NCBI GenBank assembly: GCA_945888525.1
Contig: CAMDAF010000017.1
Coordinates: 1 to 45,468, forward strand
Direction: 5' to 3'
DNA from: Chitinophaga pinensis
GTDB taxonomy: Bacteria > Bacteroidota > Bacteroidia > NS11-12g > UBA955
Length of the DNA stretch: 45,468 nucleotides
Position 1 is the stretch's first letter. Every line of letters begins with the position of its first letter. Position numbers and translations under genes: made by a program. The notes under the pieces were generated by a model. The model was given only the letters and a program-made list of their open reading frames with translations, was not told where the DNA came from and did no database searches. Of the stretch, positions 3,501 to 29,338 are shown piece by piece.

Positions 3501-4145
3501 ATGAAAGGATTCAAAAAATGCGACATAGGTCACTTCTTTAAAGACGACCTTGAATTTTGCCCTTATTGTCCTGGTAACAATGCCAATAATGCGACGCAAA
3601 TCAACAACCCAATAAGCGATAAAACACAAATAAGTGGAGGGGATAGCAGCGCAAGCGATAAAACTCAGATTATCGGTGGTGGAGGTGAAATTAATCAATC
3701 CACTCAAATTTTTGGCGGTGGCAGCAACAATCCCCAAAGCCCTAAAAGGGATCTAAACAGAACCTTTATCCAAGGGATAGAAATCAATGATGAAGGTAAA
3801 AATGTTGTAATGGAAACGGCCAGACAATCACGTAAAATTGTAGGATGGATAATTTCTTATTCGCTGGATGCTATGGGGCTTGACTTCAGAATATACGAAG
3901 GGAATAATACCATTGGACGTGATCCTGAAAATACAATAACTGTAGCCAATGACTCGGCAATTTCTGGCAAACACGTCACTATTTTATTTAGAATGAACAA
4001 ATTCTACATTAAAGATGAAATGGCTGTCAATGGAACTTTCATTAACGAAGAACTTATCGAGATAGGTAAACCATACGAATTAAATGATGGTGATACCATT
4101 CGATTAGGTGGCACATCCTTGTTTAAATTCAAATCTGCATTATAA
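3501..4145 (+). CDS. Zinc-ribbon and FHA-domain protein with TQI repeats
   Basis: 214 residues and first gene of the phospho-signalling operon. The N-terminus has a small Cys cluster (C7, H11, C20, C23: KKCDIGHFF...FCPYC) like a zinc ribbon. Residues 39-77 are three 13-residue repeats, each with TQI followed by Gly (T42, T55, T68), plus a leading TQI at T32. Residues about 127-212 are an FHA domain, a phosphothreonine-peptide reader, with the expected G139-R140, S155 and H158, and N177-G178. There is no signal peptide or membrane helix, so it is cytoplasmic. By analogy with GarA/Fha proteins the Thr-rich linker may be phosphorylated by the operon's kinases and bound by FHA domains; this is inference. 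The next gene starts after 5 bases. No clear TAnnTTTG promoter is visible in 3445-3500. Confidence 0.88.
   Translation: MKGFKKCDIGHFFKDDLEFCPYCPGNNANNATQINNPISDKTQISGGDSSASDKTQIIGGGGEINQSTQIFGGGSNNPQSPKRDLNRTFIQGIEINDEGKNVVMETARQSRKIVGWIISYSLDAMGLDFRIYEGNNTIGRDPENTITVANDSAISGKHVTILFRMNKFYIKDEMAVNGTFINEELIEIGKPYELNDGDTIRLGGTSLFKFKSAL
3615..3731 (+). repeat. Three coding repeats of 39 bases (13 residues, TQI core)
   Basis: Residues 39-51, 52-64 and 65-77 of the first FHA protein align as (S/N)(D/Q)(K/S)TQI(S/I/F)GG plus four variable residues. Thr spacing is exactly 13. Gly after the TQI core makes the linker flexible and exposed, as suits a phosphoacceptor or short peptide ligand. Confidence 0.8.
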
Positions 4146-4150
4146 ATTCT

Positions 4151-5725
4151 ATGACTAAGTTTTCTTCAAAACTGTTAATTGCTTTTTTTACGTTAACATT
4201 TGCAATTAATGGAATTTCTCAGAAACTATTAAAACCTTCAACGCCAGTTGCAGATTCATTTCCAGTTGTAACTGGTGAATTATGGTACCGTGGATCTGGG
4301 AACACGGCTTTAACAAAAGACCAGTTAAGCATTTCAGAAAACGGCAAAAAAGTTGAATATACGCTTGCGCTAAAAGAATTCAAATCAGCTGCACCCAAAA
4401 ACAAAAGAATTGTTTTTCTAATAGAGAACCATTGGCTACCTATTGGAGTTGCAGAAAGGAAGTTCTTTAATGAAGTTATTTCAAGGGGAATTCGCAATTC
4501 AATAAACCCCGGCGACCAGGTAATGGTTGCAAGTTTTGATTGGTACAGAGATGGGAAATATATGTACCAGGAAACCAATGGGTATACCGATGACATTTCT
4601 GAAATTTTAAGCGCAGTAAGCTCTATTAAGGCCAAATCAAAACGAAATCAGCCTCAAACAGGTTCAGACATCAATCAATCTTTGATGGAAACACTTCGTT
4701 TCATGAATCAATCAAACGATTCCATACTCTCTGCAATTTTTCTTTTCTCTGACGAAATGGATAACATAGTTGGAAAGATTCAGTCCATTGATGTAAAAAT
4801 CGAGTCCATCAAGAGTAATATACCAATTTATGCACTATCCTATTATAACGCCAGCCGCTATGGTCAAATCATTAAAAATGAAATATGCGAACCCAGTTAT
4901 GGCGATTATTATGCAAGCAAATCAAACAATGTAGATTCAAGCGCTGTAAAACTTTCAATGTTTTTGGATGATATGATAGAAAAAAACAGAGGCAGTTTAT
5001 ACACATACACCTATACATCGCAATTAAATAAAGATAAACAATCTGCTGAATTGAGTTTTGAAGTTAAATCGCTTCCAAATGCAGAAAAAGTCACTTTGCT
5101 TATTCCTACTAAATCGTTAACAGAATGGGTTATTGACAATAAAATTGCATCAATAGCCTGTGCTCTTGGTTTCATCCTGCTTATTATCTTGATTGTATTT
5201 TACATTAAGCAATCAAAGAAAAAACTTTTGCAACAAAAGGAAGAATTACAAAAAACACAAGCAGAATTGCAAAATCAAGCCATTAAAGCAGATAGTGAGA
5301 AAAAAGAAACCGATGCCCGTTTATTAAAAATACAACAGGAACAAATTGAAAAAGAGAATGAAATAGAACGCGCCAAAGCTTCTGAAACAGCAAAAAAAGA
5401 AGAAGAAAGATTAACTAAGCTCATGCTTTTAAAAGGTGCTTTCCCGAAATTAAACTATTCTTATCAAGGAAACAATGGGAGCATAGAGGTGAACTGCCCT
5501 GTTTTTACAATAGGTCGAGAAACCACTAACATGTTTTACATTCAATTGAATACCGTATCTAAAAAACATGCTGTTATTAAATTTCATGAGAATGGCACTT
5601 ATAGTATTACGGATACGGGCAGCTCAAACGGCACCATGGTGAATGGTGCAAAAATTTCAGAAACCACATTAAAAAGTGGAGACTTCATACAAATTGGCGA
5701 TATAGGTATTACATTCCAAAATTAA
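4151..5725 (+). CDS. Membrane protein: exported vWA-like domain, coiled coil, cytoplasmic FHA
   Basis: 524 residues. Order: signal peptide (1-24, ending GISQ); an exported domain (about 35-315) whose centre (about 85-270) has the alternating strands and helices of a von Willebrand A fold (IVFLIENH, QVMVASFDW, SAIFLFSDEMDN, IPIYALSYY); one membrane helix (about 332-352); a charged coiled coil (about 353-425, KKLLQQKEELQKTQAELQ); and an FHA domain (about 440-524) with G-R-E near 453, SKKHA and SSNGTMVNG. The usual vWA metal motif DxSxS is replaced by IENHW, so metal binding is probably lost. Topology puts vWA outside and FHA inside, fitting a receptor that links an outside partner to phosphoproteins. 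Five bases after the previous stop, three before the next start. Confidence 0.85.
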   Translation: MTKFSSKLLIAFFTLTFAINGISQKLLKPSTPVADSFPVVTGELWYRGSGNTALTKDQLSISENGKKVEYTLALKEFKSAAPKNKRIVFLIENHWLPIGVAERKFFNEVISRGIRNSINPGDQVMVASFDWYRDGKYMYQETNGYTDDISEILSAVSSIKAKSKRNQPQTGSDINQSLMETLRFMNQSNDSILSAIFLFSDEMDNIVGKIQSIDVKIESIKSNIPIYALSYYNASRYGQIIKNEICEPSYGDYYASKSNNVDSSAVKLSMFLDDMIEKNRGSLYTYTYTSQLNKDKQSAELSFEVKSLPNAEKVTLLIPTKSLTEWVIDNKIASIACALGFILLIILIVFYIKQSKKKLLQQKEELQKTQAELQNQAIKADSEKKETDARLLKIQQEQIEKENEIERAKASETAKKEEERLTKLMLLKGAFPKLNYSYQGNNGSIEVNCPVFTIGRETTNMFYIQLNTVSKKHAVIKFHENGTYSITDTGSSNGTMVNGAKISETTLKSGDFIQIGDIGITFQN

Positions 5726-5728
5726 AAA

Positions 5729-7144
5729 ATGACATTAATTAAAATTGAACAAACAGGCCTAACCGACATAGGCAATGTAAGAAAAGCAAACGAAGACAAT
5801 TTCGGTTTTATCGAAGGGAAATTAGGGCCCATTTTTACCGTTTGCGATGGTATGGGAGGCCATGTCGGCGGCGCAACAGCTTCTCAAATTGCGGTTAAAT
5901 GCATTTTAGAATACCTTGCATCATCCGATTTGAGAGTTCCTGCAGTAGAAATCAACAATGCAATTGTACTGGCCAATCAAGAAATCCTTGAAACTGCCGC
6001 AGCCAACCCTGAATTAAAGGGAATGGGAACTACTTGCACGGTCATGTTGGTGATCAATGATAGCATCCATATTGGACATGTTGGTGATAGTAGAATTTAT
6101 TTGCTCAGCGACAACAAACTTCATAGAATAACCAAAGACCATTCTTTTGTTCAAAACCTTGTCGATTCAGGTGCAATTAGCGACAGTGAAGCTGAAAGCC
6201 ATCCCCGCAAAAACGAACTTACCAGGGCATTAGGGGTTAGAAATTTGGTTGAACCAACCACCAACTCTAATCCAATTTATCCAAAGCAAGGAGATGTATT
6301 CATGCTTTGTTCAGATGGCTTATGCGGTCTGGTTAATGACAGCGAAATGCAAAACATACTGAACCAAAACCCGCAATTAGATTTAGCTGCACAAGCACTG
6401 ATAATGGCGGCCAAACAAGCTGGAGGGCATGACAATATCACAGTTCAAGTTGCGAAGATTACAGAAAGCCCTTACAAAGTATCCACATTCCCTGATTTTT
6501 CTCCTAAAGAAAATCTTAGCAAAACATTCTATCAAGTACCTTATGAGCCAGAGGTAAAAATCAAAGCAAAATTCCCTAAGAATATAAGCAAAACACATTG
6601 GCTTGTTTATTGCCTAATCGTTCTTTCTTTAACTTCGGGAATTTATCTTTATAAAATATGGAAAGATAAACAAATTGAGATGGCGGATGCTGATGGAGGC
6701 TCCAATCCGAAAGACCCTAAGGATGGCAAAGGCAATGATAAAGTTAATGATAAAGAAGGCGAACGTGATGAAGGAGAGACAACAGTTTTCTATGAAGATA
6801 ATGATTTATTGTCTTGTGACTCTACTTTAAGTGACGGTTCTTTGGTGCACTTGGTGGCTAAGGATGAGGTCTATGGTAAAGTACTCAACAAGCACGAAGC
6901 ACATTACGAAAACGATTATATTTTTACGGAGGTTATATATGAAGACAAAACTAAAGTAAATAAAAATAATATAACGAGAGACAAAAAGCTCAAATGGAAA
7001 AAGAATAAAAAAGCTGAAACTGTGGTTGAGAAAACAACTGAAGAAAGGAAAGCTAAGGCCCCTTTAAAAGCTAGAGCTACGAGAGACTCGCTTAACCAAG
7101 TTAAAAGAGATACAACAAAAAATTCCAAAACGCCCAATGTTTAA
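5729..7144 (+). CDS. PP2C-family Ser/Thr phosphatase with membrane helix and C-terminal tail
   Basis: 471 residues. Residues about 8-242 are a bacterial PP2C (Stp/PrpC) domain. GNVRKANEDNF, CDGMGGHVGG (D40, G41), GMGTTC, GHVGDSRIYLL, the DHS motif, CSDGLCGLV (D196) and GGHDNITV (D235) supply the metal-binding and structural motifs. The enzyme removes phosphate from phospho-Ser/Thr proteins and is the natural counterpart of the neighbouring kinases. A hydrophobic helix follows (about 290-311). After it come an acidic/Lys-rich linker, a small module (about 350-415) that could be SH3-like, and a very basic tail. Most stand-alone bacterial PP2Cs are about 240-260 residues, so the anchored C-terminal half is extra. 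With the phosphatase domain inside, the C-terminal module lies outside. Confidence 0.93.
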   Translation: MTLIKIEQTGLTDIGNVRKANEDNFGFIEGKLGPIFTVCDGMGGHVGGATASQIAVKCILEYLASSDLRVPAVEINNAIVLANQEILETAAANPELKGMGTTCTVMLVINDSIHIGHVGDSRIYLLSDNKLHRITKDHSFVQNLVDSGAISDSEAESHPRKNELTRALGVRNLVEPTTNSNPIYPKQGDVFMLCSDGLCGLVNDSEMQNILNQNPQLDLAAQALIMAAKQAGGHDNITVQVAKITESPYKVSTFPDFSPKENLSKTFYQVPYEPEVKIKAKFPKNISKTHWLVYCLIVLSLTSGIYLYKIWKDKQIEMADADGGSNPKDPKDGKGNDKVNDKEGERDEGETTVFYEDNDLLSCDSTLSDGSLVHLVAKDEVYGKVLNKHEAHYENDYIFTEVIYEDKTKVNKNNITRDKKLKWKKNKKAETVVEKTTEERKAKAPLKARATRDSLNQVKRDTTKNSKTPNV

Positions 7145-7151
7145 TTAAACA

Positions 7152-7955
7152 ATGACTCCAAAACGCATCAACCATATAGAAATCATTGATGAAATAGGCT
7201 CTGGAGGCACCGCAAGTGTGCTAAAAGGGGTCGACTTAAACAATGGTCGTCTTGTGGCTGTAAAAGTTTTGTGGAGCAATTTGTTTAAAAGTGATGAAAT
7301 AAAAAAGCGCTTTATTTTTGAAGCCAACCAGTATCTTTACCTTAACCATCCCGGAATTGTTGCCCTTAAAGATTTTATTATCAAGGACGACGCCTATTAT
7401 TTGGTAATGGAATATATTGAAGGGCAAAACCTAGATGAATACATCAATAAAGTTACTGGTCCAATGCCTGAAAAAAAAGCCGTTTCGATTATGCTCGAAA
7501 TCTTAGATGCTGTTGGTTATGCCCACAAGAACAATGTGCTGCATTTAGACATTAAGCCAGCCAATATTATGATTGATGGCAACAGCAAAATAAAGTTGCT
7601 TGATTTTGGCATCTCGAGTGAAGGTCAGCAAGACACCAATGGTCAGATTATGGGCAGCCCCTTGTATATGAGTCCAGAACAGATAACTGGAAAAAACATA
7701 GACAAACCATCTGATATCTATTCATTGGGTATCACATTTTTTCAGATGCTTACTGGCAATACGCCATACAGTGGAAATATGTCTAGAGAAGAATTGTTTG
7801 CCAAAATACAAGAAGGCAATTTGCCAAAAGCTAAATCAATTTATCCATTTGTTTCCGATAAAATCCAAAGCATTATAGACAATGCAACACAAACAGACAG
7901 AAATAAAAGATTTCAATCAACAGAGGAATTTTCATCACAACTAAAAGCCATATGA
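7152..7955 (+). CDS. Soluble Hanks-type Ser/Thr kinase, non-RD
   Basis: 267 residues, just a kinase domain with no membrane helix. Gly-rich loop GSGGTASVLKG (16-26), ATP-anchoring K38 in VAVK, helix-C Glu in FIFEANQYL, catalytic loop HLDIKPANI (H131, D133), DFG at 151-153 and MSPEQ closing the activation segment are all present. The Arg before the catalytic Asp is Leu (HLD rather than HRD), and the segment before GSPLYMSPE has few Thr, unlike the three later kinases. Such non-RD kinases usually do not depend on activation-loop phosphorylation, so this one may be constitutive or differently gated. Its stop overlaps the next start (ATGA at 7952), implying translational coupling with the FHA/lipocalin-like protein. 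Confidence 0.92.
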   Translation: MTPKRINHIEIIDEIGSGGTASVLKGVDLNNGRLVAVKVLWSNLFKSDEIKKRFIFEANQYLYLNHPGIVALKDFIIKDDAYYLVMEYIEGQNLDEYINKVTGPMPEKKAVSIMLEILDAVGYAHKNNVLHLDIKPANIMIDGNSKIKLLDFGISSEGQQDTNGQIMGSPLYMSPEQITGKNIDKPSDIYSLGITFFQMLTGNTPYSGNMSREELFAKIQEGNLPKAKSIYPFVSDKIQSIIDNATQTDRNKRFQSTEEFSSQLKAI

Positions 7956-8674
7956 AACAATTATCAATAGGTAGGTCAAAAGAATGTCAGATTTTAATCG
8001 ATGATATTTCCGTATCAAGACTGCATGCTACGCTTATTATCTCGGAAGGTACTTACCAAATCATTGACAACAATTCAACCAATGGTACTTACGTTAACGG
8101 AAGTAAAATACAGGGTTCAAGGGCACTACAGCACAATGATATACTAAAAGTAGGGAATGTTATTATTCCATGGAGAAATTACATCAATGACAGCAATAGG
8201 CCAAATATGGAAAGAGGGGGAACAAAACCGCTTCCTATCCAAACGCCTACCCCTATGATTATACCCAAAAGAAAGAGCCAAACGCCTACAATCATTTTAA
8301 GTATTATCATAGCAGTGGTAATTATTGGTAGCGGCCTCTTCTTTTTCAAGAAACAAAATTCAGACAGTAAAAAAATCATTGGTAAATGGAGATGCATTGC
8401 CAATTGCGGTGAGATTACTGAAATAATATTTGATGATGACCATAAAGAAAATACCGTAGAATATAAATTAGATGGCATAGAATCTATCAGAGTCAAAGGT
8501 AAATGGAGAATTATTGAATCAAGAAAGCGTCTGGTTATCACCATAAAAAGTGGAGAAGAATACAGTGAAAACGATGAGGAAAAATACGACTATTTTTTCA
8601 GAGACGACATACTTGTTCTTGAAAAAGCAGATGAAAGTGGCGCTAAAGCAACGGAGTTATTAAGGGATAAATAA
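7952..8674 (+). CDS. FHA domain - membrane helix - lipocalin-like outer domain
   Basis: 240 residues. The FHA domain occupies about residues 1-72 with IGRSKEC, SRLHATL and NNSTNGTYVNG, all the phosphothreonine-binding residues in place. A Pro-rich linker (about 85-108) leads to a membrane helix (about 110-131, IILSIIIAVVIIGSGLFFF). The outer part (about 140-235) has two GKW motifs (IIGKWRC, VKGKWRI) and beta-rich sequence like small bacterial lipocalin-like domains; this last call is tentative. The N-terminus faces the cytoplasm. Translationally coupled to the non-RD kinase, suggesting the two proteins are made in fixed ratio and may work together. Confidence 0.85.
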   Translation: MKQLSIGRSKECQILIDDISVSRLHATLIISEGTYQIIDNNSTNGTYVNGSKIQGSRALQHNDILKVGNVIIPWRNYINDSNRPNMERGGTKPLPIQTPTPMIIPKRKSQTPTIILSIIIAVVIIGSGLFFFKKQNSDSKKIIGKWRCIANCGEITEIIFDDDHKENTVEYKLDGIESIRVKGKWRIIESRKRLVITIKSGEEYSENDEEKYDYFFRDDILVLEKADESGAKATELLRDK

Positions 8675-8678
8675 ATCA

Positions 8679-9887
8679 ATGGCTAAAATTCTAAATATTG
8701 GACGAAGCGCAAATAATGATATCATTATTAATGAAAATTATATATCAGCACAACATGCACAATTGATGTCTGATGATGATATGGTAATTTACATCAATGA
8801 TTTGGGTTCTGTTAACGGCACCTTTGTTAATGGAATGAGGGTATATGGCAGCCAAAGGATACAATTCGGAGATACCATATTGCTTGGCAGTAGCAAGTTA
8901 AATTGGGAATCCTATTTTCCTGGTCTTCAGAATAGCACTAAAATTCCTGCACAAATGAGCAGCCTCAAAACCTATGGATTGAGTGCATTAGCTGCTTTAA
9001 TTTTTGTGTTTGCTATATTTGGCATTAACGAAATTGTAAGTTCTTCGGTTGAGCATGAAAAATCAGATACAACAAAAAATGGTAAAACGCAAAAAGGCGG
9101 CGACAAGACTTCAGATGAAGAAAACGGGCAGGTTCCAAAAGAAATTACCTATGATTTTTCATGCGTAGTAAGTGAACAAAATCGCGAGGCCAGCGAAGCC
9201 ACAGATGTCTTAGACGAAATGAGATCCGGAGTTATAGACGCCGCGGGGGTCGAAGTTTCTGTGCAGGAAGAAATGGAGTTTGGTGACCAGAACCATAATG
9301 AATTGCTCAAAGGCAGCACTATTGTATATGATGATAGAAGCGACAAACTCGAGCAAATACTTAAAGAGCTTGTATCTAACATAGATGCACCCAAAGGTTT
9401 CAATTATAAAATATTCTTAATACAATCTGATGAAATCAATGCTTGGACCTGCGGTGGAAGAATTTACTTTACAACAACCATGTATGCCTTTACTGAGACC
9501 AATGATGAGATGGCAGGAATTATAGGCCATGAGATTTACCATAATGAATTGGGACATATCAATAAAATGCTCAAAGTACAAAAGATCAGCGAACAAACCT
9601 ATGGCCCTGATTTCGGAGGAATTGCTTCAACAATTGATGGAATATTAAGAAGTCCCTTTGGCAAAAAAGATGAGGCCCACTGTGATTTTAAAGGAGCCGA
9701 TTTGTGCATCAAAACCAATTATGAAAGCTGTGATATTGTTGAACTATGGGAAAGAATGTCGCAAAATGAAGGAGAGTCTGATGCCCTCACTGAGTTTTTA
9801 AGCAGCCACCCACTTTCTTCCCAAAGAAGAGATTGCCTCAAAAACCACATAAGAAACAATTATCAAATTAATTGCGAAAACAAATAA
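8679..9887 (+). CDS. FHA domain - membrane helix - M48-type metallopeptidase
   Basis: 402 residues. FHA domain at about 1-75 (IGRSANND, SAQHAQL, GSVNGTFVNG), membrane helix about 98-119, then an acidic linker and a peptidase domain. The zinc motif is HEIYH (H284, E285, H288) followed by NELGH. About 45 residues on, EAHCD (E332, D336) matches the family's E-x-x-A-D third-ligand motif with Cys for Ala. SSHPLSSQRRDCL near the end matches the usual M48 C-terminal HP..xxR. M48 enzymes cut proteins at or near membranes (HtpX, BepA, Ste24). Here the peptidase should face the periplasm and the FHA domain the cytoplasm. The direct link of a phosphopeptide reader to a metallopeptidase is the most unusual architecture in the operon. 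Gaps: 4 bases before, 8 after. Confidence 0.88.
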   Translation: MAKILNIGRSANNDIIINENYISAQHAQLMSDDDMVIYINDLGSVNGTFVNGMRVYGSQRIQFGDTILLGSSKLNWESYFPGLQNSTKIPAQMSSLKTYGLSALAALIFVFAIFGINEIVSSSVEHEKSDTTKNGKTQKGGDKTSDEENGQVPKEITYDFSCVVSEQNREASEATDVLDEMRSGVIDAAGVEVSVQEEMEFGDQNHNELLKGSTIVYDDRSDKLEQILKELVSNIDAPKGFNYKIFLIQSDEINAWTCGGRIYFTTTMYAFTETNDEMAGIIGHEIYHNELGHINKMLKVQKISEQTYGPDFGGIASTIDGILRSPFGKKDEAHCDFKGADLCIKTNYESCDIVELWERMSQNEGESDALTEFLSSHPLSSQRRDCLKNHIRNNYQINCENK

Positions 9888-9895
9888 CAAACCCA

Positions 9896-10783
9896 ATGAA
9901 AAGAATCAATATTAAGAAAATACTTTTATTCACATTTATAAATGCATTAGTGCTTTTTAGTGTGGCAGGTATATTTTCAGGGAAACCTCGACTGGTTAAA
10001 TTTAACAACCTAGAATTCTTGAAAAAGAAAGGCGATTCAATTGCGGTCTTAATGACCATAACAATTGAAAATCCTAACTTTTTTTCAATCACTGGCAAAA
10101 ATGTTGAAGTCATATCCTCCAACACTTTAGGTTTTATTGGAAAAGGCACTATGGAACCTTTTACAATAAAAGCGCATTCTTCAGATTCCTTAAAAGTTCT
10201 TATGATGCTGAAGGCAGATAAAATGATGGCTGCATATACCACCAATGGGGATAATTTTGAAAGTACAATCACCATCAATGGGAATTTCTCTCCATTATTT
10301 TTTATTCACTCGGTGACCATAGAATCAAAGGTTCCTAAAAAAGAAATAAATGGCCTTATCCTAACATCTTTTATGGCAGACAACAACATTTCATTTGACT
10401 CGCTCAATTACCGTCCATTGAGTCCTGTTGAATCTGTTATGAACTTTAACGTTAAGCTTAAGAATAATTTCGATTTTGACTTTAAAATTGAAAAAGTAGA
10501 AATTGAGCTATACCCTTCCGAAAAAAGTCAAATATTATTAGGGAATTGGACATTAAACAAAGCCGTTGCGATGACTCCAAAATCAGAAATGAGTTTCCCT
10601 GGAACGCTCCATGTGCATCACATTGCGATGATGATGGCTGGTATAGAAAAAGCAGGGAAAGATCTAAATAAGGCGTATTTAAGAGGATATGCAAGCATAC
10701 TTATCGATTCTGAAGTTATAAGAGTGCCATTTAGTTTTGCTGTTTCAACCGATATGTCAAAACTTAAAATTCAGACTCAGTAA
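9896..10783 (+). CDS. LEA14/WHy-like envelope protein
   Basis: 295 residues from ATG 9896. An upstream TTG at 9872 would overlap the previous gene and put eight polar residues before the signal anchor, so I reject it. Residues about 6-24 form a hydrophobic anchor or signal. The first module (about 30-130) carries the WHy/LEA_2 hallmark ITIENPNFF with alternating polar/hydrophobic strands. A second, similar module (about 165-290) contains VKLKNNFDFDFKIEKVEIELY. Such domains are found in bacterial periplasmic proteins of unclear, possibly protective or lipid-related, function. It is one of the operon's two non-FHA, non-catalytic members if the vWA protein is set aside, and may be the envelope partner. 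Next gene 5 bases on. Confidence 0.75.
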   Translation: MKRINIKKILLFTFINALVLFSVAGIFSGKPRLVKFNNLEFLKKKGDSIAVLMTITIENPNFFSITGKNVEVISSNTLGFIGKGTMEPFTIKAHSSDSLKVLMMLKADKMMAAYTTNGDNFESTITINGNFSPLFFIHSVTIESKVPKKEINGLILTSFMADNNISFDSLNYRPLSPVESVMNFNVKLKNNFDFDFKIEKVEIELYPSEKSQILLGNWTLNKAVAMTPKSEMSFPGTLHVHHIAMMMAGIEKAGKDLNKAYLRGYASILIDSEVIRVPFSFAVSTDMSKLKIQTQ

Positions 10784-10788
10784 TTAAC

Positions 10789-13110
10789 ATGGAACCTTTA
10801 AAATTTCAATTTTTTCAAGATGGTCAATTAATCAAAAAGATTGTTTTTGCTGGTCATCAGCAAGTTTCCTTGTCAATTGGCAAAACCGACACAGATATCG
10901 TCTATAATGTTGCAGATGTTTCAAGAATGCATGCCCAAATAGTTTATGATGGGAACAGGGTATATATTCAAGACTGCAACAGCACCAATGGAACCTATAT
11001 CAATGGTGTTAAAATTTCTAGCGGGCAACTTATTCAAGTAAAAGCGGAAGATGAAATATCTTTTTCTCAGTCAAAATCCGCTACCTTAATTGTAGGAGAA
11101 AAAGTCGCTGAAAATATTTCACAGAATAAAAAACCTTCCAATTCAGCTGAAGGAGTAAAATCACTTTTACAATACCTTTCGGGAAAAGACGAAATAAAAA
11201 TCGGTCGTTCTCCAGAATGTGATGTGGTTCTTGAGCACACCTCAGTTAGCCGTGTGCATGCCACTGTGAGAAAAACATCCTCTGGGAAATACCTCATTAC
11301 TGACTTAGGTTCTCTCAACGGCACTTTTGTTAACAATAGGAAAGTCACCTCGGCTGAAGTGAGCGCTAAGGATAAAATATTTATTGGCCGTTTCCTATTA
11401 AATCTTGAATCTAGTGGAAGAAATTTAAGCAATGAATCTGCAGTCAGAGCTACAAATATTTGCAAACAATATAATAATGGATTTTTAGCACTAAAAAGCA
11501 CATCATTTGATATACCTTCAGGTGGATTAATTGCAATCATGGGGCCTTCGGGATGTGGTAAGTCTACTCTGCTAAAAGTACTTAATGGAGACTCCCCTGC
11601 CTCAGCCGGAGAAGTTTATATCAATGGTCTTGAATTAATAAGCAATTATGGTTATTTAAAAACCCAAATTGGTTATGTCCCCCAAGATGATATCGTTCAC
11701 AGAGAATTAACGGTAGAACAATCTTTATTCTATGCTGCACATATCCGATTGGATGGGGTAAGCGATGAGTTTGCTCAAGCTAAAATAGAGCAGCTCTTAA
11801 ACGAATTAAACATCAATGAAATAAGACATAGCCTTGTGTCAGCAATTAGTGGTGGTCAGCGTAAAAGGGTATCTATTGCAGTAGAATTACTCTCCGATCC
11901 AGCTGTCCTATTTCTTGATGAACCAACCTCTCCACTTGACCCTCAAACAATTGAGGAATTTATGGGCATCCTGAGAAATTTATCAGAAAAAGGCACAACG
12001 GTTATTTTGGTTACCCATAAACCCGACGATCTTGCCCATATGGATTCGGTTATGTTTATGGCAGAAGGTGGTTATCTAATTTTTTATGGGCGTTCAAACG
12101 AATACAAAGACTATTTCAAAGTAAATTCACCGGTAGAGGTATACGCCAATATAGCTGGCGAAAAAGCAAAATATTGGATCAATAAAACCTCAAATCCAGG
12201 AAATTCATTACAAATATCCCAAAATTCAGTGCGGAAAATTGACGATGATGTCAATCCATTGAGACAATTTTATTGGTTGTTAAGTCGCTATTTTAAAATC
12301 AAAACAAACGACCGTTTAAATTCGGCCATCATGCTTTTACAAGCGCCCATTATTGCAGTACTCATTTGTTTTATTTTTCAAGAAATTCGAGGGGCAGTTC
12401 CCTTTTTAATGGCAGTATCTGCTATTTGGTTTGGTGTCAATAACGCCGCAAGAGAAATAGTTGCAGAAGCGCCTATTTACAAGCGGGAAAGAATGTTTAA
12501 TGTCTTAATTGCTCCTTATATTTTTTCTAAAGTATTTGTCCTTGGAATATTTGCATTAATTCAAGCATTGCTCTTCAATAGTATTATTTGGGTTTGGTAT
12601 AGCAATAGCACTATTGGTTGGCAAGACCCGCTATCGGCTGCAGGATGGATGTTTTTCCTAACGGTTATTTCCTCTTTATTTGGATTGTTAATTTCCGCTA
12701 TTTCCAACAGCACAGAGAAGGTGATGTCGATTGTTCCAATTGCAGTTATCCCTCAAATTATGCTTGCTGGGATAATCGCAAAAATACCAAATGTTACGGT
12801 TGAATTTTTTAGTTATTTAACTTTCTCAAGATGGGGCACAGAAGGGTTTGACCATATCCAAAAAGAAATTGTTGAGCCAATGCCTAAAATTGACCCTTCA
12901 CAAAACCCTGAGGAAGTGCCAAAAATCGTTCAAGAAGATTCGGTAATTGATGCCTATGAGCAACTTGAAACGAATTTTCACAGCAGCTATGATTCGAATT
13001 TTGGCGATCTGGCGGGTACATTAACTTTAGACTTTTTAGTCATTTTAATCTTGGGCTTTATCTGTTTACTCGGCATTTGGTGGTCGCTAAAGAAAAAAGA
13101 TTCTATCTAA
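10789..13110 (+). CDS. ABC exporter with two N-terminal FHA domains (Rv1747-like architecture)
   Basis: 773 residues. FHA1 (about 25-95: SIGKTD, SRMHAQ, NSTNGTYING) and FHA2 (about 135-205: IGRSPEC, SRVHATV, GSLNGTFVN) precede an ABCG-type ATPase (about 220-440). The ATPase shows Walker A GPSGCGKST (K258), signature SGGQRKR, Walker B VLFLDEPTSPLD and an H-loop His in VTHKPDD. The last third has about six membrane helices of the ABC2 type. Mycobacterium Rv1747 has the same order (two FHA, ATPase, permease) and is regulated by a Ser/Thr kinase. By analogy this exporter should be gated by kinases of the operon. The substrate is unknown; lipids or glycolipids are plausible for this family. Five bases after the previous gene. 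Confidence 0.93.
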   Translation: MEPLKFQFFQDGQLIKKIVFAGHQQVSLSIGKTDTDIVYNVADVSRMHAQIVYDGNRVYIQDCNSTNGTYINGVKISSGQLIQVKAEDEISFSQSKSATLIVGEKVAENISQNKKPSNSAEGVKSLLQYLSGKDEIKIGRSPECDVVLEHTSVSRVHATVRKTSSGKYLITDLGSLNGTFVNNRKVTSAEVSAKDKIFIGRFLLNLESSGRNLSNESAVRATNICKQYNNGFLALKSTSFDIPSGGLIAIMGPSGCGKSTLLKVLNGDSPASAGEVYINGLELISNYGYLKTQIGYVPQDDIVHRELTVEQSLFYAAHIRLDGVSDEFAQAKIEQLLNELNINEIRHSLVSAISGGQRKRVSIAVELLSDPAVLFLDEPTSPLDPQTIEEFMGILRNLSEKGTTVILVTHKPDDLAHMDSVMFMAEGGYLIFYGRSNEYKDYFKVNSPVEVYANIAGEKAKYWINKTSNPGNSLQISQNSVRKIDDDVNPLRQFYWLLSRYFKIKTNDRLNSAIMLLQAPIIAVLICFIFQEIRGAVPFLMAVSAIWFGVNNAAREIVAEAPIYKRERMFNVLIAPYIFSKVFVLGIFALIQALLFNSIIWVWYSNSTIGWQDPLSAAGWMFFLTVISSLFGLLISAISNSTEKVMSIVPIAVIPQIMLAGIIAKIPNVTVEFFSYLTFSRWGTEGFDHIQKEIVEPMPKIDPSQNPEEVPKIVQEDSVIDAYEQLETNFHSSYDSNFGDLAGTLTLDFLVILILGFICLLGIWWSLKKKDSI

Positions 13111-13120
13111 AATACTCCAA

Positions 13121-14275
13121 ATGATCGGCCGTAAAATACTTAACTATGAAATAAAATCGCTCCTCGGCGAGGGTGGCATGGGCAATGTGTATTTGGCAGA
13201 ACACACGCATTTAGGCAGAAAGGTTGCCATTAAAAGTCTGCACCAGCAACTGGTCAAAAACGAGGGTTTGCGTGCCCGATTTAAAAAAGAAGCTTCAACC
13301 ATGGAGCTCCTAAAACATCCTAAAATAGTAGATTTACATGACTTTGTAGAAGAAGCCAATGGACTTTATTTGGTAATGGAATATGTAGAAGGCTTGACTT
13401 TAGATGAATATATAAGAAAAAAGAGCGGACCTATCCCTTATGAAATTGCCATACCAATGGTGTTACAAATATTGGATGCCTTTTCTTATGCCCATTCAAA
13501 AGGCATTGTACACCGAGACATAAAACCTTCTAATATTTTAATCACAAACAATGGAGATGTCAAAATCCTTGATTTTGGCATTGCCAAGATTCTGAATGAA
13601 GAGGCAAGCCCATTAACCAGAACCGGAATCCAGATGGGTACCGTTTATTATATGAGTCCTGAACAGGTGCAAGTCAAAGAAATAGACATTAGATCAGATA
13701 TATATTCATTGGGCGTAACCCTGCATCAAATGCTGACAGGATCCAGGCCATATGATGGCATTGTGAGTGAATATGAGGTTTATTCCAAAATAATCAATGA
13801 ACCTTTGCCTGCTGCCAGTAAATTGTACCATGGTGTTCCCGATTTTCTTGACAAGGTGATTCTGAAGGCAACACATAAGAACAAAGCAGATAGGTTTCAG
13901 AGCTGTGAGGAATTTTCAAAATATTTATCTGAGGAAAAACCGCCTGTTATTGAAAACAAAACCATAGATAATCCAATAAGTAAAACAAACCCTCTAGTAA
14001 CAGAATCAGGTATAGTTGAAATTAATGAAACAAGTAAATTAAAAAACATTCTAGTTATCGTATGGGTGGTTGTAGTATTTACAATCATATTGCTTTTTAA
14101 TTACGTTTCTGCAGAGTCGGCTAGTCGTTACGATTCGGGTCCAATTATATCCCATGAAGATTCGGCTAAAGCTGGCTTGATAACTGACCCTGAATATTAT
14201 TACGAAGAGACTGCACCAGCTGAAGATTCGATTAATGCTGGATTATCAGTCCACCCTGAATACAATTATAACTAA
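13121..14275 (+). CDS. Membrane Hanks-type Ser/Thr kinase A, short repeated tail
   Basis: 384 residues. The kinase domain (about 9-270) has GEGGMGNVYL, K38, HRDIKPSN (H131, D133), DFG (151) and GTVYYMSPEQ: a PknB-like active RD kinase with Thr in the activation segment (TRTGIQMGT). A membrane helix follows (about 309-331). The outer tail is only about 50 residues and contains two copies of EDS..AGL....PEY.Y (EDS at 346 and 368). The kinase domain is nearly the same as those of the next two genes, so the three arose by tandem duplication. It starts 10 bases after the ABC gene. The tail is too short for a typical sensor and may be a docking peptide. Confidence 0.93.
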   Translation: MIGRKILNYEIKSLLGEGGMGNVYLAEHTHLGRKVAIKSLHQQLVKNEGLRARFKKEASTMELLKHPKIVDLHDFVEEANGLYLVMEYVEGLTLDEYIRKKSGPIPYEIAIPMVLQILDAFSYAHSKGIVHRDIKPSNILITNNGDVKILDFGIAKILNEEASPLTRTGIQMGTVYYMSPEQVQVKEIDIRSDIYSLGVTLHQMLTGSRPYDGIVSEYEVYSKIINEPLPAASKLYHGVPDFLDKVILKATHKNKADRFQSCEEFSKYLSEEKPPVIENKTIDNPISKTNPLVTESGIVEINETSKLKNILVIVWVVVVFTIILLFNYVSAESASRYDSGPIISHEDSAKAGLITDPEYYYEETAPAEDSINAGLSVHPEYNYN

Positions 14276-14317
14276 CCGTAACAAAAAAAAACTAACCACA
14301 CAAATACAGACATCACC

Positions 14318-15820
14318 ATGATAGGCAAAAATATCCTTAACTACGAAATAAAAAAGCTACTTGGCGAAGGTGGCATGGGCAATGTGTATTTGGCAGAACA
14401 TGCGCAGATAGGCAGAAAAGTTGCCATTAAAAGTCTGCATCAGCAATTGGTAAAGAACGAAGGCTTGCGTGCCCGATTTAAAAACGAAGCCTCCACCATG
14501 GCCCACCTTCAACATCCTAAAATTGTTACGTTGTATGATTATGTAGAAGAAGCCGATGGCCTTTATTTGGTTATGGAATATGTAGAGGGCTTACCTTTGG
14601 ATGAATACATCAAAGAAAAAAGCGGACCTATTCCCTCTGAAAAAGCCATTCCAATGATGATACAGATTTTGGATGCGTTTTCTTATGCCCATTCAAAAGG
14701 AATTGTGCACCGAGACATTAAACCATCTAATATTCTAATCAGCAGCAATGGTGACATCAAAATTCTTGATTTTGGTATTGCAAAAATGATGATTGAGGCA
14801 GGCAACAAACTCACCAAGACAGGTACGCAAATGGGCACTGTCTTTTATATGAGCCCTGAACAGGTGCAAGGAAAAGACATCGATATTAGAAGCGATATTT
14901 ATTCGCTTGGCGTTACATTTTATCAAATGCTAACCGGCATCAGTCCATATGATGGAATGACTACCGAATATGAAATCTATTCAAAAATTTTAGCTGAGCC
15001 CCTACCCGCTGCCAGAAGTTTATACCCTGGTGTGCCCGATTTTCTTGATAAAGTTATTCTGAAGGCAACTGCAAAAAACAAGGAAGACAGATTCCAAAAT
15101 TGCGAGGAATTTTCCGCCTTTTTATTAAAACGAGAAAGTCCAGTTATTGAAAATAAAACGCTTGTTCATACAATTGACCCAGTAAAACATAAAACTCAAG
15201 AATCAGAAAAACCACAAGGTGAAAAAAGCAAGGCAAAGCTTATCTTTATGATCCTAATTGTGCTATTGGGTTCAATTTTAATTATTGTATTGGTTAATGG
15301 TATGAACAACAAATCGACGTATAATTTACCCGGCGATTCTGCATTTATAGAACCAGACCCCATTAATGAAGTTGCTGCCCCAGAAATGACTGATGTAGAA
15401 TTAGCGCCCGCAACTGAATCGGATGCAGCTCCCGCCTCAAATTATATTTCATACAATGATGCACAGACGCTTTATGAGCGTTTTGCCAATGCCATCATCG
15501 CTCAAAATGATTATGAAATATCGGCTTGTTTGGCTCCTACACTTAGCATTTGGCATAATAGTCAAAACAAAGACAGAGATCAAATCATTACAAATTATCA
15601 CAATAGGTATTTTAACAAATGGACAGTTATTGAAGACGAACTCATGGAATTAATAGAGCAAGCCAATCCAGGAGAATTTAGATATAAAAAAAGATATACG
15701 ATTATATCAACCAGCGATTCTGATAATAAAAAAGAATATGAAATCTCTGGATATTTTGTAGTCAATTCAGATGGCCAATTTATTGAAATGAAAGACCAAG
15801 AAACCACTCAAGTAAATTAA
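14318..15820 (+). CDS. Membrane Hanks-type Ser/Thr kinase B, NTF2-like outer domain
   Basis: 500 residues. The kinase domain (about 9-270) has the full motif set: GEGGMGNVYL, K38, HRDIKPSN, DFG and an activation segment TKTGTQMGTVFYMSPEQ. Membrane helix about 307-329, then an acidic Pro/Ala linker. The outer domain (about 375-495) contains AQTLYERFANAIIAQNDYEI, NYHNRYFNKW and a beta-rich end, which looks like an NTF2/SnoaL-type fold (tentative). Such a pocket could bind a small ligand and make this a receptor kinase. The 42-base gap before it is the largest between operon members but contains no terminator. Closest relative in the window is kinase C. Confidence 0.93.
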   Translation: MIGKNILNYEIKKLLGEGGMGNVYLAEHAQIGRKVAIKSLHQQLVKNEGLRARFKNEASTMAHLQHPKIVTLYDYVEEADGLYLVMEYVEGLPLDEYIKEKSGPIPSEKAIPMMIQILDAFSYAHSKGIVHRDIKPSNILISSNGDIKILDFGIAKMMIEAGNKLTKTGTQMGTVFYMSPEQVQGKDIDIRSDIYSLGVTFYQMLTGISPYDGMTTEYEIYSKILAEPLPAARSLYPGVPDFLDKVILKATAKNKEDRFQNCEEFSAFLLKRESPVIENKTLVHTIDPVKHKTQESEKPQGEKSKAKLIFMILIVLLGSILIIVLVNGMNNKSTYNLPGDSAFIEPDPINEVAAPEMTDVELAPATESDAAPASNYISYNDAQTLYERFANAIIAQNDYEISACLAPTLSIWHNSQNKDRDQIITNYHNRYFNKWTVIEDELMELIEQANPGEFRYKKRYTIISTSDSDNKKEYEISGYFVVNSDGQFIEMKDQETTQVN

Positions 15821-15838
15821 AAACAGATAAAAAATAAT

Positions 15839-17326
15839 ATGATCGGTAAAAAAATACTTAATTACGAAATAAAGTCATTACTCGGCGAGGGTGGCATGGG
15901 CAATGTTTATTTAGCAGAGCACACGCAACTAGGCAGAAAAGTTGCAGTAAAAAGCCTGCACCAACAATTGGTAAAAAACGAAGGTTTGCGCGCTCGATTC
16001 AAAAATGAAGCTTCAACCATGGCCCACCTACAACATCCTAAAATTGTAGCTTTGTATGATTATGTGGAAGAAGCCGATGGACTTTATTTGGTTATGGAAT
16101 ATGTAGAGGGCCTGCCCTTGGATGAATACATAAGGGAAAAAAGTGGACCAATTCCATCCGAAACCGCTATTCCAATGATGATGCAAATTTTGGATGCATT
16201 TTCTTATGCCCACTCAAAAGGTATTGTGCACCGTGACATAAAACCTTCTAATATTTTAATCACTAAAAGTGGAGAAATTAAAATATTGGATTTTGGTATT
16301 GCAAAAATGATGAGTGAGGCAGGAAACAAACTCACCAAAACTGGCACGCAAATGGGTACTGTCTTTTATATGAGCCCTGAACAGGTGCAAGGAAAAGACA
16401 TCGACATTAGAAGCGATATTTATTCTTTAGGTGTAACTTTTTATCAGATGTTAACGGGTATTAGTCCTTATGATGGCATGACCACGGAGTTTGAAGTGTA
16501 TTCAAAAATTGTGGCAGATCCCCTCCCAAATGCAAGCAGTTTATACCCTGGGGTACCCGTTTTTCTTGACAAAGTTATTCTGAAAGCAACTGCGAAAAAA
16601 AAGGAAGAAAGATTCCAAAACTGCGATGAGTTTTCTGGTTATTTATCCAAACGAGAAACGCCAATTACTGAAAGCAAAACAGTTGTTGAAACAAAAAACC
16701 CTGTAAAAGATCAAGTCCCAATCATTCAAAAGTCTGTAAAAACACCACTGATTGGATTGCTTATTATTATAGTTATAGTTGTATTAATAAAATTAGGTGT
16801 AGGAGGAATTAACAACTCATCGTCTTCTGATGATGGCTATATTGATTCAGACACTGAGGCTCCAACTCCCGAAGAGGCACCGGCGACAGAGACGGCACCT
16901 TATTACCCTTATGCTACAGATTCTGTTGAAGTAGCACCCGCTACAACTGAGGCGCCAGCAGAGAATAAAATTGTCGAATTTAAAAACAATTATGGATATA
17001 CTATGTATCTGGCTTACGCCTATTATGACAACGCATGGAAAACAAAAGGATGGAAAAGAATTGCCCCAGGAGAATGGGCAACGATAACTTTACCAAATAC
17101 TTTCAATTCAAATGAGATTTATTGGTATGCATCAGATTTAGATGGATTCAATCTCGAAGGGAATGATGATGGCACCAATATTAATAGATTTTGTATCTAT
17201 ACTGCAGATGACTTCTTTTTTGACAGTTATGATGCTAATTGTAACCAAAGCAAATTATTTACCAAATTGTCTGTTATTGATAATTACAGTTATGAATACA
17301 TTGGCGCTGAATTTTCTGCGCACTAA
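15839..17326 (+). CDS. Membrane Hanks-type Ser/Thr kinase C, DUF1036-like outer domain
   Basis: 495 residues. The kinase domain is almost identical to B in its first 270 residues, including K38, HRDIKPSN, DFG and TKTGTQMGTVFYMSPEQ. Membrane helix about 302-322, followed by a Thr/Pro/Glu-rich linker (about 335-375). The outer domain (about 378-495) has NNYGYTMYLAYAYYDNAWKT, then GWKRIAPGEWATI and IYWYASD. This matches the pattern of DUF1036 (N.T...V.VA.aY.....W...GW..l.PGeC), a small domain of unknown function. The PG-Cys of the family is PG-Glu-Trp here. It is the last gene of the tight operon; the next gene has its own promoter-like sequence after 213 bases. Confidence 0.92.
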   Translation: MIGKKILNYEIKSLLGEGGMGNVYLAEHTQLGRKVAVKSLHQQLVKNEGLRARFKNEASTMAHLQHPKIVALYDYVEEADGLYLVMEYVEGLPLDEYIREKSGPIPSETAIPMMMQILDAFSYAHSKGIVHRDIKPSNILITKSGEIKILDFGIAKMMSEAGNKLTKTGTQMGTVFYMSPEQVQGKDIDIRSDIYSLGVTFYQMLTGISPYDGMTTEFEVYSKIVADPLPNASSLYPGVPVFLDKVILKATAKKKEERFQNCDEFSGYLSKRETPITESKTVVETKNPVKDQVPIIQKSVKTPLIGLLIIIVIVVLIKLGVGGINNSSSSDDGYIDSDTEAPTPEEAPATETAPYYPYATDSVEVAPATTEAPAENKIVEFKNNYGYTMYLAYAYYDNAWKTKGWKRIAPGEWATITLPNTFNSNEIYWYASDLDGFNLEGNDDGTNINRFCIYTADDFFFDSYDANCNQSKLFTKLSVIDNYSYEYIGAEFSAH

Positions 17327-19477: not shown

Positions 19478-19505
19478 ATTAAATAGCTACAAACTCAAAC
19501 TTATC

Positions 19506-19549
19506 AAACAACAAATGCGTATAATGTGCATTTGTTGTTTTTGTTTTTT
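19506..19549 (+). terminator. Intrinsic terminator after the WG-repeat gene
   Basis: A perfect 13-base stem (19506-19518 with 19528-19540; AAACAACAAATGC and its complement) with a 9-base loop is followed by TTGTTTTTT. It lies directly before the ATG at 19550, so it also rules out the GTG at 19526, which falls within the loop and stem, as the start of the next gene. Confidence 0.85.
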
Positions 19550-21772: not shown

Positions 21773-21803
21773 GAATCATAAATCGAAAAACTAGATAGCT
21801 ATA

Positions 21804-23672: not shown

Positions 23673-23683
23673 CTAATTCTTAA
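23529..23683 (+). pseudogene. Possible remnant of a small lipoprotein gene
   Basis: ATG 23529 opens MKSEKTIHLQ then stops. In a second frame from 23558 the sequence reads IILV, a TAG, then AIIISCMQNNSKEKLSDKNN and on to a TAA at 23681. Joined, it would be a typical short lipoprotein signal with Cys after IIIS. One frameshift and one nonsense codon would have to be repaired. Its end overlaps the 3' end of the convergent permease gene. This could be chance. Confidence 0.25.
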
Positions 23684-24887: not shown

Positions 24888-24888
24888 G

Positions 24889-28647: not shown

Positions 28648-28995
28648 TTAATTCTGCAAATTCTTAATCATTGAATACAAGATTCGTGATAGTTCATCTG
28701 CATTTTTTAATTGCGATTGGTAATAAAGCTCATTGATTTTCTTTTCCTCATGAAGAATATCCAGTATCGCAATACATTCATATAATGAAGCTCTTGCGGT
28801 AGTGTAATAATTTTTTCTGTCAGCTTTCGAAAACTTACCAGATCCTTCCGCAAGATTTAGTGGAACACTAAAAGCGGCTCGTGATAATTGGTCTTTTATG
28901 TAATTATCTAATTTTATGGTATGAATTATTTCTTTTGTATCAATGTAAAATCTCTTAGACTTCTGATACACATCTAATTTTTGAAAATCGAACAT
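28648..28995 (-). CDS. Four-helix-bundle protein of the 23S rRNA-intervening-sequence (S23) family
   Basis: 115 residues, the usual family length. The N-terminus FDFQKLDVYQKSKRF and the core LSRAAFSVPLNLAEGSGKFS, then ARASLYECIAILDI, are hallmarks of the S23/IVP family, found first inside 23S rRNA genes and also free-standing in many chromosomes. The protein forms a four-helix bundle, and its molecular job is not established. Here it lies alone, with a 14-base direct repeat on each side (28626 and 29072), next to the tRNA-Glu terminator, which suggests it moved in as a small unit. Confidence 0.88.
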   Translation of the reverse strand: MFDFQKLDVYQKSKRFYIDTKEIIHTIKLDNYIKDQLSRAAFSVPLNLAEGSGKFSKADRKNYYTTARASLYECIAILDILHEEKKINELYYQSQLKNADELSRILYSMIKNLQN

Positions 28996-29071
28996 AGTAA
29001 TTTAGTTTTAAGTTAAAATTACTGAAAAAACTTGATTTTACAAACAAATAAGAGTGAGAGTTAATGTGAAG

Positions 29072-29085
29072 GTGGGTGTGAAAAA
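29072..29085 (+). repeat. 14-bp direct repeat, right copy
   Basis: Second GTGGGTGTGAAAAA (see 28626-28639). It runs into the A-run that forms the T-tail of the tRNA-Glu terminator on the other strand. Confidence 0.65.
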
Positions 29086-29135: not shown

Positions 29136-29136
29136 G

Positions 29137-29208: not shown

Positions 29209-29299
29209 ATTTGTTTTTAACTAGCAACCCCGTTTTGGGGAGTGCAAAAATAATAAAAAAAATTAAAATACAAATACTTCTTTTAAAAAAAAATAAAAT

Positions 29300-29307: not shown

Positions 29308-29338
29308 CAGCCACATTTAATAAACAACAATTTACAAC

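Follow-up and report, generated by a model that had tools for sequence, protein, structure and literature searches.

A patchily distributed Bacteroidota gene cluster that combines Ser/Thr kinases and FHA domains with an ABC exporter and an M48 peptidase

We analysed a window of 45,468 nt from Chitinophaga pinensis (assembly GCA_945888525.1, contig CAMDAF010000017.1, forward strand, positions 1-45,468), in which a single operon-like row of eleven co-directional open reading frames (ORFs) occupies positions 3501-17326 of the plus strand. The row combines Ser/Thr kinases, a phosphatase and FHA-domain proteins with an ABC exporter, an M48 peptidase and an LEA_2 protein (Table 1). Its ten intergenic gaps are 5, 3, 7, -4, 4, 11, 5, 10, 42 and 18 bases when the LEA_2 gene is read from the ATG at 9899; the ORF list starts this gene at the TTG at 9872, which gives a 16-base overlap with its neighbor, and we used the ATG instead. 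The next downstream gene begins 213 bases past the operon's end. The original prediction, made from the sequence, described eleven plus-strand genes with gaps of -4 to 42 bases, and the ORFs, strands and order agree with it, as does the gap range with the ATG at 9899.

According to Pfam, FHA domains occur in five operon proteins, six domains in all (E 1e-16 to 1e-38), with two copies in the ABC protein, and Pkinase domains occur in four (E 1e-57 to 1e-60). These matches uphold the predicted four Hanks kinases, PP2C phosphatase, six FHA domains in five proteins and FHA-FHA-ABC protein, and the predicted LEA14-like protein matches LEA_2 above the cut-off. Three further labels stand in part. The 'vWA' label agrees with the fold of a predicted model, but the Pfam match is below cut-off (0.036) and the DxSxS motif is absent. 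The 'zinc ribbon' label agrees with a Cys/His knuckle read from the sequence, but there is no Pfam zinc-ribbon match. The 'lipocalin-like' label stays weak, its only Pfam matches lying under the curated cut-offs. By hydropathy, a single transmembrane (TM) helix is found in each of the vWA-FHA, PP2C, FHA-lipocalin-like, FHA-M48 and LEA_2 proteins and in kinases K2-K4, the exporter has five, and the zinc-ribbon FHA protein (ZnR-FHA) and kinase K1 have none. The operon therefore holds a writer set of one kinase without a TM helix and three membrane kinases, an eraser with a TM helix, and FHA readers joined in one chain to membrane-embedded or outer domains.

Table 1. Genes of the operon, and the first gene downstream (D1), with supporting matches (E-values follow family names; TM ranges are residues)
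Feature	Coordinates	Strand	Evidence
ZnR-FHA	3501..4145	+	FHA 2.3e-16; small, no TM; C-x3-H-x8-C-x2-C knuckle; C-terminal FHA
vWA-FHA	4151..5725	+	FHA 3.7e-18; TM 332-350; coiled coil; vWA fold without DxSxS
PP2C Ser/Thr phosphatase	5729..7144	+	PP2C_2 6.7e-17; TM 292-310; C-terminal tail
K1 Hanks kinase	7152..7955	+	Pkinase 1.6e-57; no TM; HLD replaces HRD
FHA-TM-lipocalin-like	7952..8674	+	FHA 3.9e-20; GH43_C 2.9e-4 and Lipocalin_4 0.0068, both under cut-off
FHA-TM-M48	8679..9887	+	Peptidase_M48 8.5e-19; FHA 1.1e-16; TM 102-120; HEIYH, E..CD, SHP....R
LEA_2 protein	9899..10783	+	LEA_2 4.2e-6; N-terminal TM, two LEA_2/TMEM106B-like beta domains
FHA-FHA-ABC half transporter	10789..13110	+	FHA x2; ABC_tran 7.9e-32; ABC2_membrane 7e-18; 773 aa
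K2 Hanks kinase	13121..14275	+	Pkinase 3.4e-57; TM 310-328; short outer tail; NKTI at 279
K3 Hanks kinase	14318..15820	+	Pkinase 4e-60; TM 308-326; ~170-residue outer domain; NKTLV at 279
K4 Hanks kinase	15839..17326	+	Pkinase 4e-59; TM 304-322; DUF1036-like outer domain (7.5e-5); SKTVV at 279
D1, WG-repeat membrane protein	17540..19477	+	WG_beta_rep 1.4e-10; membership uncertain

The peptidase and exporter genes recur together across Bacteroidota. An alignment scan of genome contigs with FHA-M48 found at least 17 loci (the scan was limited by a pattern and gives a lower bound), of which 16 are Bacteroidota metagenome-assembled genome (MAG) loci with a related neighborhood; the other, L056, is from a Deltaproteobacterium, has the M48 gene only with no shared neighbors, and was excluded from the counts. 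These 16 MAG loci and five distant genomes make up a comparison set of 21 other loci (L043 is the record of genome G043, and L051 that of G037). M48 lies near FHA-ABC in 20 of the 21, all of which were found through M48 or ABC queries, so that this pair is favored by design; the single miss is a contig end, L042 stopping 60 bases after its FHA-M48 gene. Phylum draws are the fairer test. There, 6 of 395 genomes matched the M48 profile (E <= 1e-30) and 5 of 296 matched the ABC profile (E <= 1e-120); all five ABC-positive genomes are among the six M48-positive ones, with the two genes 0.9-1.5 kb apart. The outcome that would have refuted the original prediction, a lack of joint conservation of the neighbors, was not observed.

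The other members are present more variably. Among the 21 loci, kinases are found at 16, PP2C at 13, LEA_2 at 13 (weakly in G296), ZnR-FHA at 11, vWA-FHA at 11 (including a divergent G296 copy, and not counting a 132-aa FHA protein of L047 that matched the vWA-FHA profile but has no vWA part) and the FHA-lipocalin-like gene only at L040. For the 16 MAG loci, the counts are FHA-ABC 15, kinases 13, PP2C 10, vWA-FHA 9, ZnR-FHA 8, LEA_2 8 and FHA-lipocalin-like 1, where contigs under 6 kb (L044, L047, L049, L051, L052 and L055) account for most misses. At L040, the operon's first eight genes are retained in sequence and accompanied by a kinase, with identities of 42-78%. G231 has the order ZnR-FHA, vWA-FHA, PP2C, small FHA protein, K1, M48, LEA_2, ABC, while G256 and G296 carry divergent versions of the cluster. 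At L054, a TacA-like antitoxin and a GNAT gene lie upstream of the ABC gene, where L053 has PP2C. Of 390 genomes in a phylum search with vWA-FHA, G000 and G231 alone gave full-length matches; G256 matched over its FHA stretch only, and the divergent G296 copy was missed. In G300 and G489, the set consists only of M48, LEA_2 and FHA-ABC, on the same strand and downstream of an apolipoprotein N-acyltransferase-like gene (the Pfam scan covered G300).

Consequently, one fixed eleven-gene unit, as the original prediction implied, does not stand: of the 21 loci, 1 has the FHA-lipocalin-like gene and 13 have LEA_2, and at two distant loci no kinase, phosphatase or further FHA gene was recognized next to the M48, LEA_2 and ABC genes. 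A constant triad of M48, LEA_2 and ABC was also considered and rejected, as LEA_2 is missing from L043 and was not seen on the L050, L053 and L054 contigs; the contigs L049, L051 and L052 are too short, and L042 ends too early, for a call on its presence. Judged by gene content, only M48 with ABC is the constant core. For the five best-sampled families, pairwise distances correlate across loci (r 0.37-0.71), with 0-40 of 2000 permutations reaching the observed value.

Two side observations concern these variant loci. The G296 cluster has an FHA-trypsin fusion (L060:7201-8430, minus strand), which is a second kind of peptidase joined to FHA. The minimal M48/LEA_2/FHA-ABC sets at L061:9526-15581 and L062:9313-15253 (minus strand) are separated from the acyltransferase-like gene by an unknown 132-aa protein.

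The operon also concentrates the genome's phospho-signaling domains. Across the 2.42 Mb assembly (98% complete), all six FHA matches, all four above-cutoff Pkinase matches and the single PP2C_2 match fall within the operon, while a fifth Pkinase match, outside it, is under the cut-off. Of 117 relatives, 7 have FHA matches, with no such match in any of the 16 other genomes of the same genus, and 3 have the FHA-ABC gene. In G043, all five FHA matches and all three above-cutoff kinases likewise lie inside its cluster. Because the genome's FHA, kinase and PP2C_2 matches are concentrated here and the other same-genus genomes gave no FHA match, the partners of the FHA readers are likely encoded by the operon itself. 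On this distribution, the operon is an accessory network, closed as far as the FHA, Pkinase and PP2C_2 families go.

We now consider the peptidase. Its M48 domain scores 68.5 bits against a Pfam cut-off of 20.3, which places it in family M48. The HExxH motif is present in all 27 M48 domains compared, and E..[CA]D in 26 of them, L050 having E..SD. A hydrophobic segment separates FHA from M48 in 16 of 16 untruncated fusions, and the stand-alone M48 relatives from the clusters have a signal-peptide-like N-terminus in 10 of 10 cases; these two features, together with the envelope proteases LoiP and BepA as nearest named models, predict a periplasmic position for the M48 domain, beyond the inner membrane. 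The original prediction had FHA domains recruit the peptidase. With the M48 domain predicted outside, the FHA domain would tether or switch it across the membrane and would not deliver it to a substrate in the cytosol. The stand-alone form is also present in 5 of the 16 MAG loci and is the sole M48 form in all five distant loci. In the M48 tree (with L047 counted as fused, the contig-truncated L055 left out and one long-branch row, L060, included), starred branches force at least three gains or losses of the FHA domain, and a single origin of the fusion is ruled out by these changes. Full-length FHA-M48 did not serve as a genus marker, being present only in G037 and G043 of 116 other relatives. 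In a plasmid search, none of the 213 matching records covered 80% of FHA-M48, and no full-length relative was found.

The exporter's ATPase precedes its ABC-2 membrane domain, the ABCG-type order, and ABCA4 and ABCG2 lead its PDB profile matches. Its most likely cargo is a lipid or a lipid-linked molecule of the envelope, as suggested by the transporter type, by the LEA_2 neighbor and by the acyltransferase-like gene beside the G300 and G489 sets; this is the weakest step of our interpretation. Proteins of the LEA_2 family may transfer lipids. An open-access literature search for lipid transfer by LEA_2 proteins returned nothing of use. The operon's LEA_2 protein matches the family profile over residues 62-151, its first domain, at 27.6 bits against a cut-off of 25.4. 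Its second, C-terminal domain best resembles TMEM106B (VIA-align Z 11.8, rmsd (root-mean-square deviation) 3.5, 122 aligned, 8% identity) and also matches At1g01470, an LEA14 protein (Z 11.3). A PDB profile search with the protein places TMEM106B and LEA14 first, weakly (E 0.04-0.05), and Foldseek alone returns Ig-like matches with low TM-scores. Both beta domains are predicted to be periplasmic.

The ZnR-FHA protein may be the hub on which the readers converge. A linker of about 84 residues with DKTQI/NRTFI motifs precedes its FHA domain, and in an alignment of nine sequences and 104 columns the only invariant linker columns are K41-T42, T88 and G99. Of 20,000 composition shuffles of the linker, none reached four invariant columns and none reached two invariant threonines. 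T42 and T88 look selected because the rest of the linker is divergent, which makes them candidate phosphosites and the protein a candidate phospho-hub. DKTQI resembles the [DNS]KT motif that stands immediately C-terminal to the kinase domain in K2-K4 and in kinases at L042 and L059. As an illustration only, such motifs occur 18 times in 2,571 aa of ZnR-FHA proteins and 4 times in 123 background proteins totalling 41,454 aa, where the motif was picked after reading the sequences and the homologues are not independent.

The vWA-FHA protein has a signal-peptide-like N-terminus by hydropathy, the hydrophobic stretch being under the 19-residue TM cut-off. Its predicted model (mean pLDDT, the predicted local distance difference test, of 78) has a clear vWA fold at residues ~79-281 (VIA-align Z 18-19), and BatB of Bacteroides thetaiotaomicron (3ibs) aligns to it with Z 18.4 and rmsd 2.5 over 174 residues. 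This vWA domain is predicted to be periplasmic. The vWA metal ion-dependent adhesion site (MIDAS) has the motif DxSxS, which is absent from 9 of 10 aligned sequences covering that place; the tenth (L045) is cut there.

The phosphatase scores 254.7 bits (E 7.6e-76) on the NCBIfam Stp1 model, above its cut-off of 230, and is of the Stp1 type. K2-K4 are 65-79% identical over their aligned spans, yet they have different outer tails. HLD replaces HRD in all seven K1-type kinases (the window and L040, L044, L045, L046, L048 and L057), and HRD is present in 25 of 26 non-K1 kinases compared, the remaining one having no motif match. HLD is a clade mark of K1-type kinases and may point to regulation that needs no activation-loop phosphorylation.

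Beyond the operon, the plus strand at 17540-23249 encodes D1, a 748-aa protein without a Pfam match (D2) and an fn3-repeat protein whose N-terminus resembles that of a lipoprotein (D3). D1 has a match at only one of the compared loci, L041, where its residues 1-403 align with the WG-bearing kinase (24% identity, E 9e-12). D1 is a possible extra sensor, and its likeness to the L041 kinase tail would be as expected of exchangeable sensors. The compared loci contain no relative of D2, of D3 or of the DUF805 gene upstream of the operon. The minus strand at 23673-27247 encodes an FtsX-like permease, an ABC ATPase and a DUF4836 protein. The last is found in 4 of 59 genomes (E <= 1e-20) and is 85% identical to a protein on contig C58 of G016, which also carries that genome's tRNA-Glu/GAPDH block. 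A gene for a 23S rRNA-intervening-sequence type protein (PF05635) and short repeats lie at 28648-29135, beside tRNA-Glu, with further copies in the genome. The tRNA-Glu/GAPDH junction (29136-30325) is conserved in 9 of 9 same-genus genomes examined, and the variable other side holds the operon. No protein from the left side of the window was found beside tRNA-Glu/GAPDH in these nine relatives, two of whose stretches hold less than 1 kb there, except for a weak generic ABC match. Integration at tRNA-Glu (29136-29208) was considered; a search of the left 29 kb of the window gave no duplicate of its 3' end, so that this is a variable site where insertion is not established.

By combining these observations, we propose how the operon would operate. 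Its composition, linkage and conserved motifs are established here, whereas phosphorylation, docking, topology and substrate are inferences. The kinases' outer tails would sense envelope conditions and set kinase activity. The kinases would then phosphorylate the invariant threonines of the ZnR-FHA linker, as well as their own juxtamembrane threonines. The exporter, the vWA protein and the peptidase would dock on these phosphothreonines through their FHA domains, which would cluster the parts and switch export and periplasmic proteolysis together. The PP2C phosphatase would reset the system to rest. We assign a probability of about 0.5 to the reading that the operon is a self-contained, patchily distributed envelope-control system, a phospho-switch with the exporter and the M48 peptidase as its output. 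Of the single circuit put forward in the original prediction, the part that survives is that the genes belong together, by linkage and by concentration in the genome; the fixed unit does not, and the peptidase would act outside the inner membrane.

Several observations weigh against this proposal. The G-R..S..H..N-G signature is kept in five of the six operon FHA domains, and the exception is the exporter's first FHA domain (10789-11064), which has G-K where the other five have G-R; its phosphopeptide binding may be weakened. The threonine motif at kinase residues 279-281 is found in only 5 of 22 membrane kinases (K2-K4 and one each at L042 and L059), three of which are mutual duplicates. The composition-shuffle control for the ZnR-FHA linker ignores ancestry. 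Membrane topology was read throughout from hydropathy alone, and the genome-wide scan of kinases and phosphatases covered the Pkinase and PP2C_2 families only. The LEA_2 model is only of middling confidence (mean pLDDT 74), and Ig-like domains of GH2 enzymes score Z 11.6 on it, tied with TMEM106B; with the absences of LEA_2 described above, a fixed export-plus-carrier machine is not established. Finally, the G300 and G489 sets have no recognized adjacent phospho-gene, their kinases lying elsewhere in the genome, and the switch genes are therefore not obligatory neighbors.

An envelope stress response is possible, though we consider it on the unlikely side: M48 and LEA_2 would perform quality control of outer-membrane proteins or lipoproteins, the kinases would report damage and the ABC protein would move a lipid or lipoprotein. 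The LoiP/BepA-like M48 domain, the different outer tails of the kinases and the position of the G300/G489 sets downstream of an apolipoprotein N-acyltransferase-like gene are in line with this response, but the very patchy presence (3 of 117 relatives) speaks against a housekeeping role, and no chaperone, sigma factor or BAM gene is among the eleven. It is more doubtful that the operon is a kinase-controlled exporter only, an enlarged PknF-Rv1747 pair in which FHA-M48, vWA-FHA and ZnR-FHA are accessory regulators of exporter turnover or assembly. ABC genes alignable across the FHA as well as the ABC regions do lie near an annotated Ser/Thr kinase on a Brasilonema and a Rhodococcus plasmid. However, no M48, LEA_2, PP2C or vWA gene is named around either plasmid gene (the annotation is incomplete, several products being 'hypothetical'), and in Bacteroidota the M48 gene is as constant as the exporter, even without an adjacent kinase, at loci that were found by M48 or ABC queries.

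The remaining explanations are improbable to differing degrees. A kinase-phosphatase-vWA system for phage defence or conflict (similar to TerY-P, KKP or PD-T4-6) would suit the patchy presence, and K1 and K3 score on PADLOC PD-T4-6 models while PP2C scores on the candidate-defence model PDC-M21C (E 2e-9); KKP is described as a defence kinase-phosphatase module (PMC11341870). In a PADLOC scan of nine proteins (K2 and K4 excluded), only K1, K3, PP2C and ABC matched; the kinase matches reflect the generic kinase domain and the ABC matches generic ATPase parts, so that nothing beyond kinase, phosphatase and ATPase domains was recognized, while ZnR-FHA, vWA-FHA, FHA-M48, FHA-lipocalin-like and LEA_2 had no match at E <= 0.001. 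No nuclease or killing effector is among the eleven, and most parts are membrane or outer proteins; such a system is improbable. It is more improbable still that independent genes share the operon by dense packing or joint transfer, with no common function. Content varies between loci, some of which lack single members, but composition and order recur in distant Bacteroidota with correlated divergence, and the genome's FHA, Hanks-kinase and PP2C_2 matches are concentrated in one operon. Least probable is that the operon supplies the regulatory half (PpkA-PppA-Fha) for a type VI-like machine with its structural genes elsewhere. Kinase, phosphatase and FHA do combine in the threonine-phosphorylation pathway of type VI secretion (PMC12607579). 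In this cluster it is an exporter and a peptidase that are conserved as partners, and the FHA regions match TagH only partly (best TIGR03354 score 42, cut-off 120). No type VI structural family was found among the Pfam-scanned ORFs of the window, in agreement with the original prediction, and none was sought genome-wide.

The envelope-control reading has a bolder extension, which we offer tentatively as less likely to hold than to fail. The operon would be a mobile, closed Ser/Thr circuit in which cytosolic phosphothreonine, read by FHA-TM-M48, switches outer proteolysis in a complex with the exporter and a tandem TMEM106B-like protein carrying lipid over the periplasm, and in which the FHA domain acts as a plug for new outer parts. 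The plug is suggested because FHA was repeatedly gained or lost on the peptidase. Bacterial Hanks-kinase networks are as a rule hard to resolve, owing to cross-talk between kinases and scattered targets. Here, eleven genes hold the genome's Hanks-kinase, PP2C_2 and FHA matches, so that the whole circuit could be transferred to a laboratory strain and its reader-target pairs fully mapped. If the reading is true, FHA-M48 would place envelope proteolysis under the control of cytosolic phosphorylation, which was not found in the literature examined. If the LEA_2 reading is true, the operon would allow lipid transfer by the LEA_2 family to be studied in bacteria.

Parts of the system resemble several known proteins. 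The closest named M48 models are LoiP and BepA (NCBIfam), and like them the peptidase has an intact zinc motif; its scores of 51 and 52 bits are far under their cut-offs of 365 and 570, and it has an N-terminal FHA domain and TM helix, where LoiP and BepA are built as a lipoprotein or with TPR. The LEA_2 protein shares with TMEM106B and LEA14 the Pfam family, an N-terminal TM helix and, by a structural match, its second domain, but differs in its two tandem domains and its linkage to an ABC exporter. ZnR-FHA, like GarA and OdhI, is a small FHA protein with N-terminal phosphoacceptor candidates. The phosphoacceptor motif of GarA and OdhI is ETT, whereas ZnR-FHA has DKTQI/NRTFI motifs and a Cys/His knuckle and scores far under the cut-off of the OdhI model.

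At the level of whole systems, the nearest comparisons are with type VI regulation and with Rv1747. PppA, of the type VI system, is a PP2C phosphatase. During type VI secretion, Fha is phosphorylated by PpkA, and condensates formed by the two recruit membrane parts (PMC12607579). The operon resembles this pathway, in which a membrane kinase and an FHA scaffold protein govern a membrane machine (PMC12607579), but the scanned window ORFs hold no type VI family and the partners are an exporter and a peptidase. An eLife 2020 survey of conflict systems mentions a theme in which a kinase, PP2C and vWA are linked, and does not use the phrase 'ABC transporter' (PMC7159879). In Mycobacterium tuberculosis, Rv1747 and the kinase PknF form a two-gene operon, the first FHA domain of Rv1747 (FHA I) binds phosphothreonine of Rv2623, and an Rv1747 mutant has less phosphatidylinositol mannoside (PIM) lipid (PMC3908365, PMC5549992). 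Like Rv1747, the exporter has two N-terminal FHA domains, an ABC ATPase and an ABC-2 membrane domain in one chain and, as with PknF-Rv1747, its gene is linked to Ser/Thr kinase genes. The aligned relative of the exporter is a Rhodococcus jostii plasmid protein (29% identity over 88% of the query) and not Rv1747 itself. Unlike the two genes of PknF-Rv1747, there are eleven here, with PP2C, four kinases, vWA-FHA, ZnR-FHA, FHA-M48 and LEA_2. The original prediction knew of no described system with this composition, and we found none in the open-access literature covered by our searches. The peptidase arm appears new relative to every described kinase/FHA-exporter system found in that literature. 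Judged by its composition and linkage, the cluster is a real conserved system, a variation on the kinase-controlled FHA exporters to which a peptidase arm is added.

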